DNA from: an uncultured Ruminococcus sp.
GTDB taxonomy: Bacteria; Bacillota; Clostridia; Oscillospirales; Acutalibacteraceae
NCBI GenBank assembly: GCA_902802795.1
Contig: CADCNI010000017.1
Coordinates: forward strand, 39,242-89,894
Direction of reading: 5' to 3'
DNA length: 50,653 nucleotides
Below the pieces are notes generated by a model. It had not been told where the DNA came from and searched no databases. It worked only from the letters and a program-made list of their open reading frames with translations. A program made the position numbers and the translations under genes. Shown here in pieces: positions 1 to 41,534 of the stretch. Position 1 is the first letter of the stretch; each line of letters starts with the position of its first letter.

Positions 1-273
1 TCCGACGAAACGGATGACGACGATATTTACGCCGAGGAATCCGACGAAACGGATGACGACGATATTTACGCCGAGGAATCCGACGAAACGGATGACGACA
101 ATATTTACGCCGAGGAATCCGACGAAACGGATGACGAAGATCTATACGAAGAAGAATCCGACGAAACGGATGACGAAGATAATTACGCCGGGGAATCCGA
201 CGAAACGGATGACGAAGATATTTACGCCGGGGAATCCGACGAAACGGACGACGAGGAAATGTACGCCGAGGAG
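1..273 (+). repeat. 39-bp in-frame tandem repeat, about 7 copies
   Basis: Seven consecutive 39-bp units encode a 13-residue acidic motif. The first three units are almost identical in DNA and later ones diverge, as expected for recent expansion by slippage or unequal recombination. The array may continue upstream of the window. There are no spacers, so it is not a CRISPR array. Confidence 0.95.
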
Positions 274-1437
274 TCCGGGAACACGGAAGACGTGGAAGAC
301 ACAGAAACCGTTTTTTCCCATACAGAAAGCGGAGAAGAATGTGGCGAAACAGAGGATGACAAAGAATTTGTACCTCGTTCTGAGAGAGAGTATTCTGTAC
401 AGGAAGTGCTCGATGAGCTTCTGACTGCACAGGAAGAAGAGCCTGCGCGGGTATATCATCCCCGTGAGGAAGAAAAAGTGGATATCATGGGATATCTGAA
501 TGAAGACGCATTGAATGAGATTGACGAGAAATGCGCGGATATTGAAGTGACGCCGACAACTGTTTCACAGGACACGGATCTGGAACATACGCAGGTTTTT
601 GACATTGGCAGCACACGCGTTTTTGCTCCTGTAACAGAGAATGACGGTTATGTGGATGAACCATATGAGACGAATCGGTATGCGTCAGTGGCGCAGACTC
701 ACAGCAAACCCAGAAAGCGCGCGGGATTATTGCAGATTGCAGTGCTGCTGGTCGTGGTTGCCGGAATTACGTGGCTGGTGAGCAAAGCGGCCTTTTCCGT
801 TATGGGCCGCGATCAGAATGGCGACGCACAATCTGTTCCCTATGACGATTCGTCATCGGATACAGTGATAAAAACATTTGACGACGGTATGTCCGATACG
901 GTTTCCTCAGATATTCCTGAGTTTAATACCAATCAGTTGTCGGAAGGTGACACCGGTGAACTGGTGTCGGCAGTGCAGCGCCGCCTCAATTTGTTCGGAT
1001 ATCTTGCTTCGGAATCTGTGAGCGGTACTTACAACAAAGCGACCGCAGCCGCCGTCAGGCAATTTCAGAAAGCCAATGGCCTTGAGCAGAACGGTATTGT
1101 GGACAAGGCTACCTTTGATGCGATTTTTGACAATGATGCGGCTACGCAGACAACGGTGACTACGCTTTTGCCCATCACAACGGTTGCTGAAACAACCACC
1201 ACGCCGACGACGGGAGCAATCACCGATGCTCCTACGGAAGAAACAACGCAGCAAACAACACAGCAAACAACGGTACTGACCGAAAGTACGACTATGAAGA
1301 CGACAGCCGCCATGTCTTCAGATGAGACCGATGCAACCAAGTCCACGTCTACAGTGACGGAAACGATGACGTCGACGACCACAGAGTCAACTTCGTCTCT
1401 CTTGTCTCCGGACAGTACAGAGGAACAAGCTGGTTAA
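1..1437 (+). CDS. Membrane-anchored peptidoglycan-binding protein with acidic repeats (5' partial)
   Basis: The reading frame is open from base 1, so the N-terminus lies outside the window. The visible part starts with seven 13-residue acidic repeats (consensus SDETDDxDIYAEE), then an acidic linker, a basic stretch and one transmembrane helix (about 715-800), a peptidoglycan_binding_1-type domain (about 937-1130, with the typical VSAVQRRLNLFGY and FQKANGL segments) and a Thr-rich tail to the stop. The basic residues before the helix suggest that the acidic part is cytoplasmic and the peptidoglycan-binding part outside. The same order recurs in the next gene, so the two are paralogues; the missing N-terminus may also hold a TGS domain, which is inference. 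Function unknown; a cell-wall-tethered surface protein is the simplest reading. Confidence 0.8.
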   Translation, partial: SDETDDDDIYAEESDETDDDDIYAEESDETDDDNIYAEESDETDDEDLYEEESDETDDEDNYAGESDETDDEDIYAGESDETDDEEMYAEESGNTEDVEDTETVFSHTESGEECGETEDDKEFVPRSEREYSVQEVLDELLTAQEEEPARVYHPREEEKVDIMGYLNEDALNEIDEKCADIEVTPTTVSQDTDLEHTQVFDIGSTRVFAPVTENDGYVDEPYETNRYASVAQTHSKPRKRAGLLQIAVLLVVVAGITWLVSKAAFSVMGRDQNGDAQSVPYDDSSSDTVIKTFDDGMSDTVSSDIPEFNTNQLSEGDTGELVSAVQRRLNLFGYLASESVSGTYNKATAAAVRQFQKANGLEQNGIVDKATFDAIFDNDAATQTTVTTLLPITTVAETTTTPTTGAITDAPTEETTQQTTQQTTVLTESTTMKTTAAMSSDETDATKSTSTVTETMTSTTTESTSSLLSPDSTEEQAG

Positions 1438-1480: not shown

Positions 1481-1602
1481 GGATTTGTGGTGCGGCTTGG
1501 GAGCAGCTCTTGAAGAAAATGTTTGATGACGGTTAAGAAACAATACCTTTTATCTTGTAATGGGTCTTTAAGATTATGGCATTTGGAGGACTGGATATCA
1601 TT

Positions 1603-3720
1603 ATGATTGAAGTAAAAATTAACGGAAAAACACTGAGTTTTGAGTCGGGAGTTACTGTGAGTGATGTGCTGGAGGCATTCGATGACAAATCTGTCGAGTA
1701 CGTTTTTGCGGTAAAGATTGACGGAGAGGTTTTTGATCTCGATGACACGATTACCCACGACTGTGAAATTGAACCGATTTCTTTCCGTGATATCAGGGGA
1801 AGACAACAGTTTTCCAGAGAGCAGGCGTACGAGGAGACAGACCACGAAAATCTTGAAGAACAAGAGAATAGCAGAGTAGGCGCTGCCGTGGGAAATGCGG
1901 TTTCTCAGGATGGATATTCTGAAATTGAGAATGAAATTAAAAATATACTCGGCGGTCTGACGGATGAGGATGACGATCCATATCTCAATTCCGATGAGGC
2001 ACTAATGATGTTGCAATCGGTGGCCAAAGAGGTAATGAATGATTCCTATGCCATGCTCTCTGAGGAAATCGAAGAAACCGCTTCCGAGGAAGACCAAGAG
2101 GAAGAAACCGCTTTTGAGGAAGACGAAGCGGAAGAAACCGCTTTTGAGGAAGACGAAGCGGAAGAAACCGCTTTTGAGGAAGACGAAGCGGAAGAAACCG
2201 TCTTTGAAGAAGACGAAGCGGAAGAAACCGTCTTTGAGGAAGACGAAGCGGAAGAAACCGCCTCCGAGAAAGACGATTTTGACATGAGTGTCTTTGATAT
2301 GATTGTACCGAGATCAGATCTGAGAGTGAATCATATAGCGGAAGCTGCGGCAGAAGAACCAGAGTTAATAGATGAGTCCGGTGACTATCTTGAGGAAGCG
2401 GACGATGCAGAAGAAGCGGACGATGCAGAAGAAGTGGATGATGCAGAGGAAGCGGACGATGCAGAAGAATATGGAACATTTGGCTCTTTTGGAGAATTCG
2501 GGGGATTTGCGGAGGACGTCGAAAGCGACCAAGCTGTTCAGGAACCGGATTACAGTGTGCAGGACAGTGATTTTGAAGAGTTTCTGATTCGCAGCAAAAA
2601 AAGCGACGATGAAGTGGATGATGTGGAAGAGAGCGAGTCTGAACGGGAAAGAAAAGAACGTCAGATGGCAGTTTTGACCAATACTTTTTATAACGACTAT
2701 TTTGATGACAAGTCGGACGATGAAGCGGATGATTCCGACGGTAAGGAAGCACAAAAACATTCCTACGCTCATTCCCATCGCCAAAAGAGAAGAGCCAAAC
2801 GTGCCATCCAGGTGGCGGCGTTGCTGATCGCACTGACCGGACTTGGCTGGATTGTAGGCAAAGCGGCCATGAAGGCGGTCGGTTCTTCTGGCAACACAGT
2901 GAGCGGTACCAATGTGGTTTCCGCATCCGAAACGGTGTCCGGAACGGATATTTCTGAAAGTGATTTCATGGTAAATGGCAAACCGCAATACAGGGCGAAG
3001 CTCTTGACGCTGGGAAGTGCCAATGAACTGGTTGGGATGGTGCAGATTCGTCTGAGCGAATTGAACTATCTCGGTGAAAAGGACGTCAATAAGATATACG
3101 GCACCAAGATGTCCAAGGCAATTGAGCAATTCCGTGCGGTCAACAAGATTAAGAGTGAGGGAGACATTGACCAAGAAACCTTTAACGCGCTGTTTAGTGA
3201 TAAGGCGATGGCAGCGCCGGTTTCTGCTTCCGATGCCGGAACGACTACTGTGACGAAAAGTACATCTGTGACATCCGCCACCACGACCGAAGCAACCACG
3301 CAGTCTACCACCAAGGAGACAACCAAAAATACAACCAAAAAGACAACCACTACGACTCGTCGTCGTACTACTACCACCACCACTACGACCCGTCGCCGTA
3401 CTACCACCACCACTACGACCCGTCGCCGTACTACCACCACCACTACGACCAGACGTCGTCGTACTACGACTACTACCCAATCAACGACGATCGAAGAACC
3501 TACTCAAACCACGACAGCAGAGGAGCCTACCTCGTCAACAACGGTGGAAACGTCCTCGACCACAAAGAAAACAACAACCAAGAAAACCACTACTAAGAAA
3601 ACAACCACCAAGACAACCACAGAGCCGACCCAAGCGCCCACCAGTGAGCCGACGTCAGCTCCTACCCAATCCCCTTCTTCTAAAGAAGAAAACACCGGAA
3701 GCACCACAGACGGAGAATGA
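1603..3720 (+). CDS. TGS domain-acidic repeat-TM-peptidoglycan-binding protein with Thr-rich tail
   Basis: The ATG at 1603 is preferred over an in-frame ATG at 1576 because GGAGGA lies at 1585-1590 and the protein then begins MIEVKINGK, aligning with MIQVTLKGD of the ThrRS encoded 420 bp downstream. The first ~70 residues look like a TGS domain: VKIDGEVFDL and EPISFRDIRG match VDGKVCDL and EILTFDDIDG of ThrRS. Then follow 10-residue acidic repeats, EADDAE repeats, a basic segment, one TM helix (about 2797-2875), a peptidoglycan_binding_1-type domain (about 2998-3200) and a long Thr tail with RRRTTTTTTT units. The predicted topology puts the TGS domain in the cytoplasm and the wall-binding domain and tail outside. 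TGS is known as a nucleotide- or RNA-associated fold in ThrRS, Obg-like and RelA/SpoT proteins; I know of no described fusion to a wall anchor. Function unknown. Confidence 0.85.
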   Translation: MIEVKINGKTLSFESGVTVSDVLEAFDDKSVEYVFAVKIDGEVFDLDDTITHDCEIEPISFRDIRGRQQFSREQAYEETDHENLEEQENSRVGAAVGNAVSQDGYSEIENEIKNILGGLTDEDDDPYLNSDEALMMLQSVAKEVMNDSYAMLSEEIEETASEEDQEEETAFEEDEAEETAFEEDEAEETAFEEDEAEETVFEEDEAEETVFEEDEAEETASEKDDFDMSVFDMIVPRSDLRVNHIAEAAAEEPELIDESGDYLEEADDAEEADDAEEVDDAEEADDAEEYGTFGSFGEFGGFAEDVESDQAVQEPDYSVQDSDFEEFLIRSKKSDDEVDDVEESESERERKERQMAVLTNTFYNDYFDDKSDDEADDSDGKEAQKHSYAHSHRQKRRAKRAIQVAALLIALTGLGWIVGKAAMKAVGSSGNTVSGTNVVSASETVSGTDISESDFMVNGKPQYRAKLLTLGSANELVGMVQIRLSELNYLGEKDVNKIYGTKMSKAIEQFRAVNKIKSEGDIDQETFNALFSDKAMAAPVSASDAGTTTVTKSTSVTSATTTEATTQSTTKETTKNTTKKTTTTTRRRTTTTTTTTRRRTTTTTTTRRRTTTTTTTRRRRTTTTTQSTTIEEPTQTTTAEEPTSSTTVETSSTTKKTTTKKTTTKKTTTKTTTEPTQAPTSEPTSAPTQSPSSKEENTGSTTDGE
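2071..2280 (+). repeat. 30-bp in-frame tandem repeat, 7 units
   Basis: Units of 30 bp encode EETAFEEDEA. Three consecutive units (2101-2190) are identical and the outer ones carry a few changes. They expand the acidic cytoplasmic region of the TGS-membrane protein. Confidence 0.93.
2398..2469 (+). repeat. 18-bp in-frame tandem repeat, 4 units
   Basis: Four 18-bp units encode the six-residue motif ADDAEE in the same acidic region. They are unrelated in sequence to the 30-bp array upstream, so two separate expansions occurred in one gene. Confidence 0.88.
3361..3450 (+). repeat. 30-bp in-frame Thr/Arg repeat, 3 units
   Basis: Three 30-bp units encode RRRTTTTTTT in the extracellular tail. The units at 3391-3420 and 3421-3450 are identical. 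Confidence 0.9.
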
Positions 3721-3746: not shown

Positions 3747-3775
3747 TTGACAAATTTGTTTTTTTGCGTTATCAT
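3747..3775 (+). promoter_or_regulatory. Promoter of the thrS T-box leader
   Basis: TTGACA (3747-3752), 17-bp spacer, TATCAT (3770-3775). It lies directly after the stop of the TGS-membrane protein and places the transcript start near 3782, at the 5' end of the T-box leader. Confidence 0.75.
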
Positions 3776-3781
3776 AGCTTT

Positions 3782-4104
3782 ATTAACAGAATCTACACCG
3801 TAAAATCATTGAGGGAGAACAAACCCTTTTGCTTCATGTCACAGAGATTTGCCCGCAGGCTGAGAGGGCGAACGGAGCAGGAGGGCATAAACCGCTCCCG
3901 AGTGCGGAACGACAAGGCACGTCTTTTCAAAAGGCGGCACAAGTTCCGACGTGTGGCTGCGTTACAGGCCGAATGAGCGGACACAAATTTTTATTTTTTG
4001 ATTCGTGTCAACACGGGTGGAACCGTGGGCGCTGCGATTTATGCATCAAAGCCTCACCCCGAATGTACCTGACGGTATGTTCGGGGTGAGGTTTTTTCTA
4101 TTCT
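3782..4104 (+). ncRNA. T-box riboswitch (threonyl-tRNA responsive, inferred)
   Basis: The ~320-nt leader of thrS holds several stem-loops, the T-box sequence GGGTGGAACCGTGG at 4015-4028 and then a strong intrinsic terminator. T-box leaders sense uncharged tRNA and let transcription proceed when the cognate amino acid is scarce. Threonine specificity is inferred from the downstream gene; I could not place the specifier codon with confidence, although ACC, ACG and ACA triplets occur in the Stem I region. The window offers a second link to threonine: the gene just upstream has a Thr-rich tail and a ThrRS-like TGS domain. Confidence 0.88.
4052..4097 (+). terminator. T-box regulated terminator before thrS
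   Basis: A perfect 12-bp stem (CCTCACCCCGAA with TTCGGGGTGAGG) is followed by six T residues. It is 46 bp upstream of the thrS start and is the off-state hairpin of the T-box. Confidence 0.9.
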
Positions 4105-4143: not shown

Positions 4144-6087
4144 ATGATTCAGGTAACATTGAAAGGCGATGTCAAAGAGTACGAAGCAGGCATTTCCGTC
4201 GCGGAAATCGCCAAATCTATCGGAGCGGGTCTGTACAAATCCGCGTGTGCCGCTAAGGTGGACGGCAAGGTGTGCGATCTGCGTACCGTTCTGGAAAAGG
4301 ATTGCGAGGTGGAGATTCTCACCTTTGACGATATCGACGGCAAAAAGGCGTTCTGGCACAGCACATCTCACATTCTGGCGCAGGCGGTCAAGCACCTTTA
4401 CCCTAGCGCCAAGCTGTCCATCGGCCCTGCCATCGACAACGGTTTCTACTACGATTTTGATGTGGAGAAGCCCTTTACCGCCGATGATCTCGCTGCCATT
4501 GAAAAAGAAATGAAGGCGATCGTCAAGAGCGGCATGCCGATTGAAAAATTTGAGCTGGCCCCCGATAAGGCGCTGGCGCTGCTCGAAGAAATGCAGGAGC
4601 CTTACAAGGTGGAGCTTTGTCAGGAACACGCCGACAAGGGTGAGGACATTTCCTTCTACAAGCAGGGCGATTTCACCGATCTCTGCGCAGGCCCGCACCT
4701 CATGAGTGTGGCTCCCGTCAAGGCGTTCAAGCTTACCAACTGCACGGGCGCTTACTGGCGCGGCGACTCCAAAAACAAAATGCTCTGCCGTATCTACGGC
4801 GTGTCCTTCCCCAAGGCGTCCCAGCTCGAAGAACATCTGGCTATGCTGGAGGAAGCCAAGAAGCGCGACCACAACAAGCTCGGCAGAGAGCTGGAACTTT
4901 TCACCACGGTGGACGTCATCGGTCAGGGATTGGCGATCCTGCTGCCGAAAGGCGCGAGAATCATTCAGTTGCTCCAGCGATTTGTCGAGGATGAAGAACA
5001 GAAGCGCGGCTGGCTGCTCACTAAAACGCCCTTTATGGCCAAGAGCGACCTCTACAAAATCAGCGGTCACTGGGATCACTACAAGGACGGTATGTTTGTG
5101 CTGGGCGAGGAAGAGGAAGGCAAGGACTGCTACGCCCTGCGTCCGATGACCTGTCCTTTCCAGTACCAGGCCTACCTCAACCGTCCGCGTTCCTACCGTG
5201 ACCTGCCGCTGCGCTACAACGAGACTTCTACGCTTTTCCGCAATGAGGAAAGCGGAGAAATGCACGGTCTGATTCGTCTGCGTCAGTTTACGATTTCCGA
5301 GGGACACCTGATGTGCCGTCCCGACCAGTTGGAGGATGAATTCAAGGGCTGTCTCGAGCTTGCCATCTACATGCTCAAAACGCTGGGTCTGTATGAAGAT
5401 GCATCCTACCGCTTCTCCCAGTGGGATCCTGACAACCGCGACAAGTACATCGGAACAGAGGAACAGTGGGACGAGGCACAGGGCAAGATGAAGAACATCC
5501 TTGACGATTTGCAGGTGCCTTATGTCATCGGCATTGGCGAAGCGGCCTTTTATGGCCCCAAACTGGACATCCAGATCAAGAACGTCCACGGCAAAGAGGA
5601 TACGCTCATCACCATCCAGATCGACCAGATGCTGGCGGAGAAATTCGGCATGGAATATACCGACCGCGACGGCACCAAGAAGCGGCCCTACATCATCCAC
5701 AGAACCTCCATCGGCTGCTACGAGAGAACGCTGGCCTACCTCATTGAAAAATACGCGGGCGCGTTCCCGACATGGCTTGCGCCGGTGCAGGTCAAGCTGC
5801 TGCCCATCGCGGACAGACATCTCGATTATCTCTATGACGTGATCAAAGCGCTCGAAGCCGAGGGCATCCGCTGCGAGGTGGACGACCGCAACGAAAAGAT
5901 TGGCTACAAGATTCGCGAGGCACAGATCAAGAAGGTGCCTTACATGGTCATTGTAGGCGACAAGGACATCGAAAACGGCACGGTGGCGGTGCGTTCCCGC
6001 AAGGATGGCGACATTGGCTCGATGAAGCCGGAGGAATTTGTCAGCCTGATCGTGGAAAAGGTGAAGTCCAAGGTCATCGACTGCTGA
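4144..6087 (+). CDS. thrS: Threonine--tRNA ligase
   Basis: ThrRS charges tRNA-Thr and edits mischarged seryl-tRNA in the cytosol. The 647-residue protein has the usual order: TGS domain (about 1-62), editing domain with HSTSHILAQAV and an AGPHL segment, class II catalytic core with motif 2 around RNEESGEMHGLIRLRQF and motif 3 around IGCYERTLAYLIEKY, then the anticodon-binding domain starting near VQVKLLPI. The length is normal for bacterial ThrRS. AGGAGGT at 4131-4137 supports the ATG at 4144. Expression is controlled by the T-box leader. A 2-hydroxyacid dehydrogenase starts 13 bp downstream and is probably co-transcribed. The motif 3 residues IGCYER differ from the more usual LGSLER but the key arginine is present. 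Confidence 0.97.
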   Translation: MIQVTLKGDVKEYEAGISVAEIAKSIGAGLYKSACAAKVDGKVCDLRTVLEKDCEVEILTFDDIDGKKAFWHSTSHILAQAVKHLYPSAKLSIGPAIDNGFYYDFDVEKPFTADDLAAIEKEMKAIVKSGMPIEKFELAPDKALALLEEMQEPYKVELCQEHADKGEDISFYKQGDFTDLCAGPHLMSVAPVKAFKLTNCTGAYWRGDSKNKMLCRIYGVSFPKASQLEEHLAMLEEAKKRDHNKLGRELELFTTVDVIGQGLAILLPKGARIIQLLQRFVEDEEQKRGWLLTKTPFMAKSDLYKISGHWDHYKDGMFVLGEEEEGKDCYALRPMTCPFQYQAYLNRPRSYRDLPLRYNETSTLFRNEESGEMHGLIRLRQFTISEGHLMCRPDQLEDEFKGCLELAIYMLKTLGLYEDASYRFSQWDPDNRDKYIGTEEQWDEAQGKMKNILDDLQVPYVIGIGEAAFYGPKLDIQIKNVHGKEDTLITIQIDQMLAEKFGMEYTDRDGTKKRPYIIHRTSIGCYERTLAYLIEKYAGAFPTWLAPVQVKLLPIADRHLDYLYDVIKALEAEGIRCEVDDRNEKIGYKIREAQIKKVPYMVIVGDKDIENGTVAVRSRKDGDIGSMKPEEFVSLIVEKVKSKVIDC

Positions 6088-39867: not shown

Positions 39868-41534
39868 TTTGCCATTTTTTCGTCATTCTCCCCGTTACCG
39901 TCATTTTCTCCGTTATTTTCTTCCTTTTCTCTGTTGTATTTCTCGATTTCCGCCCTTCCCTGTAAAATTCGTGCCTGCCACCGATCCGGAATGCATTTCA
40001 AATGAACGTCGAGCGTCCGGTCGGCGTGAACCACGATTTTGTCAACGATGCTACGATAGAAGGTGTCGTCCCATTCTTCACCGGCGGAGAGGGAATGAAT
40101 GTAGCCGCTGATATCCTCCATGAGTTTGGTCTTGTCCGCCAGCAATTGTGCGCGGGCTTTTTCTTTTGCGAGTTTTTCCTGAAGGGTGAGCTGTTCTTCA
40201 TTCAGCCGCTGAATCCCTTTTTTATATTCCACCGTTTCGATGTCGCCCGACAGACACATATCCAGCAGCTTTTGCTTTTTGCCCTCGATCTTTTGCAGCT
40301 CGCTCTCGAAGTAATCGGCGTTGCCCTTCTCCGAGCAGGATTTCAGCACGTCGCTCACCGTGCCGAGAACGCTTTGCAACAGGCTCTCCCTGTCCCGCAT
40401 GACCTGCCCGACCACATATTGCAGAATGTCGCGGATGTCGCGGTCGTGAAGGTTGCAGCAGTTGCAGCCCACTTCATCGCCGTTTCCGATGGTGTGCTTT
40501 TTGCCGCCTTCCCGCTGCCTTCTGATACACCGCCAGACTTCATAGGGCGAACCGTTGCCCGCCGTGCGCTGTATATGGACGAAGGTGGAACCGCATTCGC
40601 CGCAGATGATTTTGCCCGACATCGCGTAACGGTTGGCAAAGCCGTTTTTGGCGGCGTGAAGCTCGTGCCGCCTTTCGATCTCCCGCTGTGTCGCCTCGAA
40701 CACCTCTCTGGAAATGATTGGCTCGTGGTGGTCGCGGATGGTGACAAATTCCATTTCGCCGCGGTTGTACTTCTTGCCGTGGGTGAGATAGTCGGGGGTG
40801 AAGGTCTTTTGCTGCACCAGATCGCCGCAGTATTTTTCGTTCTTCAATATGCGGAGAATGACGGTGTACGACCATTCCTTCATGTAGATGGAGGTGCGGA
40901 TGCCCGCTTCACGCAGCTCGTGAGCGATGACGTGAGTTCCCTTGCCTTCGTCAAGGTACTTGTGGAAGATCAGCCTCACGATCTCCGCTCCTTCCGGATT
41001 GATGTGAAGCTCACCGTTGCGCACATCGTAGCCCAGCATATCCCGCCCGAAGACAACGCCCTGCTCCATGCGCCGGCGGTGTCCCCATTTGACGCGCTCG
41101 GACGTGCGGCGGCTTTCCTCCTGCGCGATGGAGGACATGATGGTGAGCCGCAATTCCGAGTCCGCGTCGAGGGTGTTGATGTTGTCGTTCATGAAGATCA
41201 CGCCGATTCCCATTGCCTTGAGCTGCCGGGTGTAACCGATGCTGTCCAGCACGTTGCGGGCGAAGCGGGAGATTTCCTTGGTCAGAATGAGGTCGAATTT
41301 GTGTTCCTTCGCGTCCTCGATCATGCGGTTGAAGGCGGCGCGTTTCTTCGTTCCGGTGCCGCTCACGCCCTCGTCCACATAGATTTCGTGAAGCTCCCAC
41401 AGCGGGTTGCGGCGGATGTACTCGTTGAAATACCGCTGCTGGCTTTCCAGCGAATTGGCCTGGTCGAGATTGTCGGTAGACACGCGGCAATAGGCGGCAA
41501 CTCTTTTAATTTGATTGTCGAATGGATTGATCAT
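39816..41534 (-). CDS. Large serine recombinase
   Basis: A 572-residue site-specific recombinase. The N-terminal resolvase domain has RVAAYCRVSTD with the nucleophile Ser19, YVDEGVSGT, LTKEISRFARN and MSSIAQEESRRTSERVKWG. A recombinase domain follows (GYDVRNGEL to KTFTPDYLTHGKK), then a zinc ribbon (CGECGSTF ... CNCC) and a coiled coil (about 420-480). This architecture is typical of integrases of conjugative transposons and skin-like elements in Clostridia. AAAGGAG upstream supports the ATG at 41534. Its last ~17 codons lie within DNA that resembles cotJC on the other strand, so the gene crosses a junction with the target. Confidence 0.93.
   Translation of the reverse strand: MINPFDNQIKRVAAYCRVSTDNLDQANSLESQQRYFNEYIRRNPLWELHEIYVDEGVSGTGTKKRAAFNRMIEDAKEHKFDLILTKEISRFARNVLDSIGYTRQLKAMGIGVIFMNDNINTLDADSELRLTIMSSIAQEESRRTSERVKWGHRRRMEQGVVFGRDMLGYDVRNGELHINPEGAEIVRLIFHKYLDEGKGTHVIAHELREAGIRTSIYMKEWSYTVILRILKNEKYCGDLVQQKTFTPDYLTHGKKYNRGEMEFVTIRDHHEPIISREVFEATQREIERRHELHAAKNGFANRYAMSGKIICGECGSTFVHIQRTAGNGSPYEVWRCIRRQREGGKKHTIGNGDEVGCNCCNLHDRDIRDILQYVVGQVMRDRESLLQSVLGTVSDVLKSCSEKGNADYFESELQKIEGKKQKLLDMCLSGDIETVEYKKGIQRLNEEQLTLQEKLAKEKARAQLLADKTKLMEDISGYIHSLSAGEEWDDTFYRSIVDKIVVHADRTLDVHLKCIPDRWQARILQGRAEIEKYNREKEENNGENDGNGENDEKMANQGDSEPMSVSIAFNSG

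Follow-up and report, generated by a model that had tools for sequence, protein, structure and literature searches.

Within the window analysed here, a stretch of 50,653 nucleotides from an uncultured Ruminococcus sp. (contig CADCNI010000017.1), the open reading frame at 1603-3720 encodes a protein of 705 aa, named B in what follows, that carries at its N-terminus a TGS-type beta-grasp domain of the threonyl-tRNA synthetase (ThrRS) subtype. From the layout of the remainder of the sequence, we infer that B is a bitopic protein that would span from the cytoplasm to the cell wall, with its head in the cytoplasm and its tail in the wall. The reading that we favour makes B a cytoplasm-to-wall scaffold in which the TGS domain has been reused as a protein-docking head; we regard its chances as evenly balanced, and the evidence on both sides is laid out below.

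Layout of protein B and identity of its N-terminal domain

The features of B, all on the forward strand, are as follows.

1585..1589, + strand: likely ribosome-binding site of B, GGAGG, upstream of the ATG at 1603 (from the sequence)
1603..1800, + strand: TGS domain of the ThrRS subtype, residues 1-66 (sequence, profile and model comparison)
1801..2772, + strand: acidic, repeat-bearing region, residues 67-395, in which D and E make up 124 of 329 residues; presumably disordered and cytoplasmic
2803..2859, + strand: single predicted transmembrane (TM) helix, residues 401-419 (hydropathy), preceded by a K/R-rich stretch
3025..3192, + strand: PG_binding_1 domain, residues 475-530 (PF01471 at 29.4 bits, cut-off 23)
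3211..3717, + strand: Thr-rich C-terminal tail, with Thr at 80 of 169 residues

A preliminary description of this DNA had read the N-terminal ~70 residues of B as a ThrRS-like TGS domain, and this observation was confirmed. Residues 1-70 give an ungapped alignment with the ThrRS encoded next to B, at 33% identity (E 5e-14, pairwise BLASTP), and thrS is the sole other match to the B head across the source genome (E 1.6e-9). The signature DCExExLTF is common to the B head and the ThrRS TGS domain, and an MI-x-[VI] start is common to all 14 aligned B TGS domains. In a profile-profile comparison, the 14 B heads matched 19 ThrRS TGS domains with a probability of 99.5 (E 1.3e-22). In a profile search of the B head against the PDB, ThrRS was again first (E 1.3e-6, with a second ThrRS at 8e-4), as opposed to SAMP2 at 0.002 and ThiS at 0.3. 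An AlphaFold model of the head, built from the 14-row alignment, has a mean pLDDT of 86.5, and the top Foldseek match to this model is ThrRS 1tje (E 2.2e-4). Only three Foldseek rows reach E 0.001; rows 1-13 are ThrRS or chains of the mitochondrial ribosome (mL39), and the best ThiS appears in row 14 at 3.7e-3. In the model, the beta-grasp fold of the B head matches that of the ThrRS N-terminal domain.

The B profile was also scored on a panel of 29 sequences, comprising the 19 ThrRS of alignment A3, one RelA and nine rows obtained with a uridine-kinase query. The 19 ThrRS score 56-76 bits, the RelA 11 bits, and the uridine-kinase-query rows from below zero to 37 bits. The RelA row (L090, the best TGS match) was assigned by reading, and among the kinase rows the identity is backed by Pfam for L146 only (PF00485). 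One of these nine rows, L199, lacks a P-loop and by its sequence seems to be a remote ThrRS from a different family; its score of 28 bits is lower than that of the best kinase.

An identity as a ThiS-type sulfur carrier was suggested by single-sequence Pfam searches, in which the window protein scores higher for ThiS (18.4 bits) than for TGS (14.2 bits), both below the cut-off; another run gave 18.1 and 13.8 bits. Over the 14 B heads, the TGS cut-off is passed by four (33.5, 29.6, 27.8 and 24.4 bits) and the ThiS cut-off by two (24.3 and 24.4 bits). The ThiS identity is ruled out by the profile and fold comparisons, and also because B lacks the free C-terminal Gly-Gly of ThiS and MoaD, the B head lying at the start of a chain of 705 residues whose last five are TTDGE. 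None of the SAD, catalytic core or anticodon-binding domains of ThrRS is found in B by Pfam.

C-terminal to the head, short tandem repeats lie within the acidic stretch of ~330 residues, and in one subgroup of B proteins this stretch contains kept motifs, for instance DYSVDDxDMDAFL and MQMHLGVPKIDDLV. Threonine accounts for 104 of the 705 residues of the whole protein, and ACC for 47 of these 104 codons. All 12 long B proteins have one TM helix, and in all 12 the net positive charge of the 15 residues on its N-side exceeds that of the 15 on its C-side; this excess of charge suggests an N-in/C-out orientation.

Distribution of B and the origin of its head

B was found in 14 of the 18 genomes in the genus sample, 16 of which are matched by the 70-residue head query. 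In each of the 12 genomes with both genes on one contig, thrS is the next gene after B and has the same orientation, and synteny and domain order are conserved within the genus; the B genes of G007 and G017 stop close to a contig end. As for the genomes lacking B, thrS starts near or past the contig end in G006 and G008, and G012 gave no match. In G003, the locus is intact and holds a lone gene with a TM helix, PG_binding_1 and a Thr-rich tail, without the TGS domain, directly before the T-box and thrS. The G003 neighbours in the direction of hprK differ in order and orientation (L062).

The window itself contains a tandem paralog of B.

1..1437, + strand: paralog A, with acidic repeats, TM helix, PG_binding_1 and Thr-rich tail, without TGS; the window does not reach its 5' part

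Over the TM helix and PG-binding domain, A and B share 32% identity (E 2e-24). A lies directly before B in 11 of the 11 loci examined, with a gap of ~26 to 165 bases (L050, which has no upstream sequence, L057 and L058 are outside this count), and a tree of 12 A and nine B proteins consists of two well separated groups (99/98). PG_binding_1 was assigned by Pfam in A of the window, L049 and L062, and was seen in the sequences of the rest. A 120-base run of N (G000:C17:39122-39241; L048 10123-10242), either an assembly gap in the repeat or a withheld stretch, is present within the acidic repeats of A, directly before the window.

In the family sample of 300 genomes, the head query matched 209. 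Four of the matching genomes belong to the genus, and a single match was obtained in each of the remaining 205. The 26 loci that were examined from these single-match genomes were all read as ThrRS. A sample of 297 genomes of the order, scanned with the 14-row profile at 1e-4, gave matches in 126 and nothing in 171, a strict threshold given that these 171 genomes show not even their ThrRS. Among the matching order genomes, the source genome alone belongs to the genus. Of 29 loci examined from the others, one (L064) was already among those classified, and the 28 new ones are all ThrRS (27 by motif, one by reading), with no B. In G355, the single match falls on a TGS-uridine kinase (L192) and not on a ThrRS. 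Two matches were seen outside the genus in G499 (a ThrRS and a TGS-uridine kinase) and in G361, whose second match is within a frame of 1335 aa resembling a surface protein. Thus, at the thresholds used, no second B was found outside the genus in the two samples, of 300 genomes for the family and 297 for the order. The surroundings of thrS in 20 family genomes, examined over up to 10 kb, contained no gene like A or B, and neither did those of hprK in six genomes outside the genus.

The profile scores support ThrRS as the nearest relative of the B head. As to the idea that the domain had been copied from the thrS of the genus, a tree of 66 TGS domains over 70 columns does not recover a clade of B with genus ThrRS and yet does not reject it (p-AU 0.244). 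On the scoring panel the genus ThrRS score highest, at 63-76 bits, a range overlapping the 56-71 bits of ThrRS from outside the genus, and the window B head is only 33-37% identical to genus ThrRS. The tree has a higher likelihood with all B as one clade; in the free tree, the uridine kinase L146, on a very long branch, is placed among the B rows.

This placement, and the fact that L146 looked alike, were the grounds for considering a TGS-uridine kinase as the source of the B head. Such an origin is disfavoured by the lower scores (at most 37 bits, compared with 56-76 for the A3 ThrRS) and by the source genome, in which no TGS-uridine kinase was found at E 1e-15. Against this rejection, however, the distant ThrRS also scores only 28 bits, and some matches from the order score lower still.

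Taken from the ThrRS side, B may have arisen when a duplicated A-type gene acquired a TGS domain from a ThrRS. In the hprK tree G003 branches first (82/88), which would suit a gain of B after the G003 split. The A gene of G003 forms a long branch inside the group of A genes; a position outside this group was not rejected (p-AU 0.285). By these trees, a loss of B in G003 and a gain after its split are equally possible.

Docking, threonine sensing and other possible roles of the head

In a comparison of 14 B heads with 19 ThrRS TGS domains, M1, I2, G8, A36, G41 and F61 are kept in all 14 B heads, and D53, C54 and D63 in 13. Many residues that are invariant in ThrRS have been lost. L6, A23, G29, L30 and R47 are retained in none of the B heads, with R47 replaced by D in 11 and by E in three, and K24, S25, K32 and D62 are each retained in one. 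The B heads have common residues of their own, namely D21, F26 and V37 (13 of 14) and R62 (12 of 14). Mean net charge, calculated over 65 residues, is -7.4 for the B heads versus -4.7 for the ThrRS domains. The dN/dS ratio of the head is 0.11-0.26 in all eight chosen pairs, with dS > 1 in some. The head is thus maintained by selection, but probably for a task other than the one it has in ThrRS.

In the scaffold that we propose, the Thr-rich tail and the PG-binding domain would hold the outer part of B in the wall, and the TGS head, together with the short conserved motifs of the acidic stretch, would recruit a cytoplasmic protein partner. The head would act as a protein-docking domain and not as a sensor of RNA or threonine, in the manner of the TGS domain of SpoT, which is required for binding ACP and Rsd (PMC6917717). 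Docking appears more likely than threonine sensing, owing to the many ThrRS hallmark residues that are lost from the B head, and it is preferred to an RNA role on the basis of charge and residue losses. The loss of basic residues in particular speaks against a role in RNA binding, although the head may yet have one.

A number of observations weigh against the docking scaffold. The domain that would bind the wall is missing from three of the 12 long B proteins: Pfam assigns PG_binding_1 in the window protein and L053 and gives no match in L056, L060 and L061, and in the remaining seven long proteins it was judged present from the alignment. The architecture of TGS domain, acidic region, TM helix, PG_binding_1 and Thr tail, as it had first been described, is thus complete in the window, but among the relatives the conserved core is the TGS domain, the TM helix and the Thr tail, and binding to the wall may rest on the tail alone or be non-essential. 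A mimic of the FtsZ C-terminal tail was sought in the acidic stretch, with the FtsZ of the source genome, and none of 11 proteins gave p < 0.05 (the lowest value being 0.11), so this candidate was rejected. B is missing altogether from G003. In the head, other ThrRS-invariant residues are partly retained (V4 in 11, G16 in 10, C35 in nine, D45 in six, L46 in 11, T60 in 10 and G66 in six of the 14), and the ranges of net charge overlap, at -3 to -12 for B heads and -3 to -7 for ThrRS. An RNA role of the head is also made possible by the company that TGS domains keep, since they are almost always within RNA-binding multidomain proteins (PMC1779556) and that of RelA binds the CCA end of tRNA (PMC4974054).

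A role in threonine sensing is best considered with the sequence downstream of B.

3747..3775, + strand: sigma-70-type promoter-like site, TTGACA-17-TATCAT, matching the consensus at 11 of 12 positions, between B and the T-box
3800..4064, + strand: thrS T-box leader, 69.1 bits, E 7.5e-15, under the Rfam gathering score
4050..4093, + strand: intrinsic-terminator-like site where the T-box ends
4144..6087, + strand: thrS, threonyl-tRNA synthetase, with TGS, SAD, catalytic core and anticodon-binding domain

The T-box thrS unit that had been described directly downstream of B is therefore present, and ACC at 3891-3893 was read by eye as its Thr specifier. A T-box was found in all 13 genus thrS leaders searched, from a total of 16 genus thrS loci. 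Promoter-like sites of all grades number five in the stretch scanned, versus 2.7 expected. No Rfam family was matched at E <= 1 in 1300-1900, that is, before and into B. With a promoter-like site and the T-box both after the B stop codon, and no Rfam match before the gene, B does not look T-box controlled, and the T-box unit seems, judging from the consensus matches, to begin after B.

The thrS genes of the genus encode a mosaic protein. Over the N-terminal 235 residues, identity to the window ThrRS is 82-99% in 13 of 13 relatives; over the remaining 412 it is 90-99.5% in six relatives and only 47-51% in seven (L049-L056, L059-L063). The catalytic half of ThrRS seems to have been exchanged in the genus while the TGS domain, SAD domain and T-box stayed.

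The preliminary description had linked B to threonine status, and its interpretation was on the whole only partly supported, this link being a part that was not supported. As an explanation of B, it would have the TGS head report the status of threonine or tRNA-Thr, through tRNA-Thr, ThrRS, the ribosome or an alarmone, to a wall protein that is hungry for threonine. ThrRS as the nearest relative of the head, the position before thrS that is kept in 12 of 12 genomes, the T-box in every thrS leader searched and the threonine content of B all suit it. The gene order, however, may be simple inheritance from the event that made B; thrS has a promoter-like site and T-box of its own, with no RNA-family match before B; and many residues invariant in ThrRS are lost from the head. 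Richness in threonine is not special to B, as Thr-rich stretches are also present in A and in the proteins at L003 and L008. Taken together, these points disfavour the link, and we think it improbable. The view that the head is a hitch-hiking N-terminal cap without its own task, the working parts being the TM helix, acidic stretch and wall tail as in A, is unlikely in our judgement. It would fit the lack of TGS in A and the low identity of the window head to genus ThrRS, but it does not sit well with the low dN/dS in all eight chosen pairs or with the residues that the B heads have in common.

Similarly doubtful on present sequences is a transmembrane signalling protein of the anti-sigma kind, and of the explanations weighed here it has the smallest chance of being correct. 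B would in that case sense the wall and hold a cytoplasmic regulator, as for RsgI, which has a small cytoplasmic head, one TM helix and an outer binding part, a topology like that of B. However, no sigma factor was noticed among the neighbouring ORFs by eye, where no profile search for one was made, and the TGS is not an anti-sigma domain to our knowledge. Improbable in our view, finally, is a homotypic pairing in which the head binds ThrRS or another TGS and so keeps translation machinery at the membrane, close to the wall. The head is of the ThrRS subtype, and the isolated TGS domain of Clostridium leptum RSH is a dimer (PMC4974054), but many of the residues common to ThrRS TGS domains are lost and the sequence has no sign of pairing.

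The proposal takes in paralog A as well: A and B would form a working pair, each a scaffold between cytoplasm and wall or a marker of position, MapZ-like in topology. All 12 A proteins have a T-x-V-[FY] motif (589-624 in the window) that precedes the TM helix by 31-50 residues, and none of 12 B proteins has one; in shuffles of the same A region, the motif occurs anywhere in 0-33 of 300. Motifs of this type resemble the phospho-threonine sites that are bound by FHA domains, as in GarA and OdhI. FHA domains are present in two proteins of the source genome. In one, the FHA domain is fused to a protein of the FtsW/RodA/SpoVE type (L190 1156-3192; G000:C5 near 93863), and in the other, two FHA domains are fused to an ABC transporter ATPase (L189; G000:C14 near 40417-40899). 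That A is linked to the FHA-FtsW/RodA protein through its T-x-V-F-type motif is a guess. The larger arrangement, in which the TGS head of B and the T-x-V-F motif, FHA domain and FtsW/RodA protein on the side of A form a scaffold pair that would tie an assembly in the cytoplasm to the wall as it grows, is a speculation that we consider unlikely.

Comparison with known systems

We know of no described protein that has a TGS domain together with a TM helix and wall-binding parts. A literature search, which left out most subscription journals, returned no such protein in the text it covered, in agreement with the preliminary description, and none is mentioned in the TGS sections of PMC1779556, PMC7159879, PMC6917717 and PMC4974054. 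If the scaffold-pair speculation is correct, B would, as far as is known and was searched, be the first bitopic envelope protein with a TGS domain, and a case of a translation-derived module in the wiring of the envelope. Kept as the head of a protein that runs from membrane to wall, the domain is here outside its translation and alarmone setting. With a possible parent gene adjoining B, a TGS-less paralog beside it, and G003 with its lone TGS-less gene, one genus makes it possible to test both how a fusion of domains arose and whether a TGS domain may have gone over from binding RNA to binding protein.

The B head resembles the TGS domain of ThrRS (PF02824) in its fold, its N-terminal position, its ungapped 70 residues and the DCExExLTF signature, but it sits on a membrane protein that is devoid of SAD, catalytic and anticodon-binding domains, and invariant residues are lost. 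In RelA and SpoT, too, the TGS fold belongs to a multidomain protein and serves regulation, whereas B has no (p)ppGpp domains by Pfam, and the B profile gives the RelA-type TGS of the source genome 11 bits. The TGS-uridine kinases also carry a ThrRS-like TGS on another protein; here, a kinase domain (PF00485 in L146) takes the place of the TM helix and wall parts, and scores do not exceed 37 bits. A TGS-uridine-kinase query matches eight of 197 genomes of the order, one of these matches (L199) being the row that reads as ThrRS. In mL39 of the mitochondrial ribosome, which appeared among both the PDB profile and Foldseek matches, a ThrRS-like TGS is again found in a non-synthetase, but this is a ribosomal and not a membrane protein.

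By topology, the best analog of B known to us is MapZ of streptococci. This protein has one TM helix and a mostly disordered cytoplasmic part, which binds FtsZ through its N-terminal region, and its extracellular part carries a Ser-rich linker (PMC7055233, PMC4931243); the single TM helix, the largely disordered cytoplasmic N-terminal part and the outer low-complexity linker are the points of likeness to B. The abstracts on MapZ mention no TGS domain, and the two proteins are likened by plan only. B is thus a new combination of known parts in a known topology.

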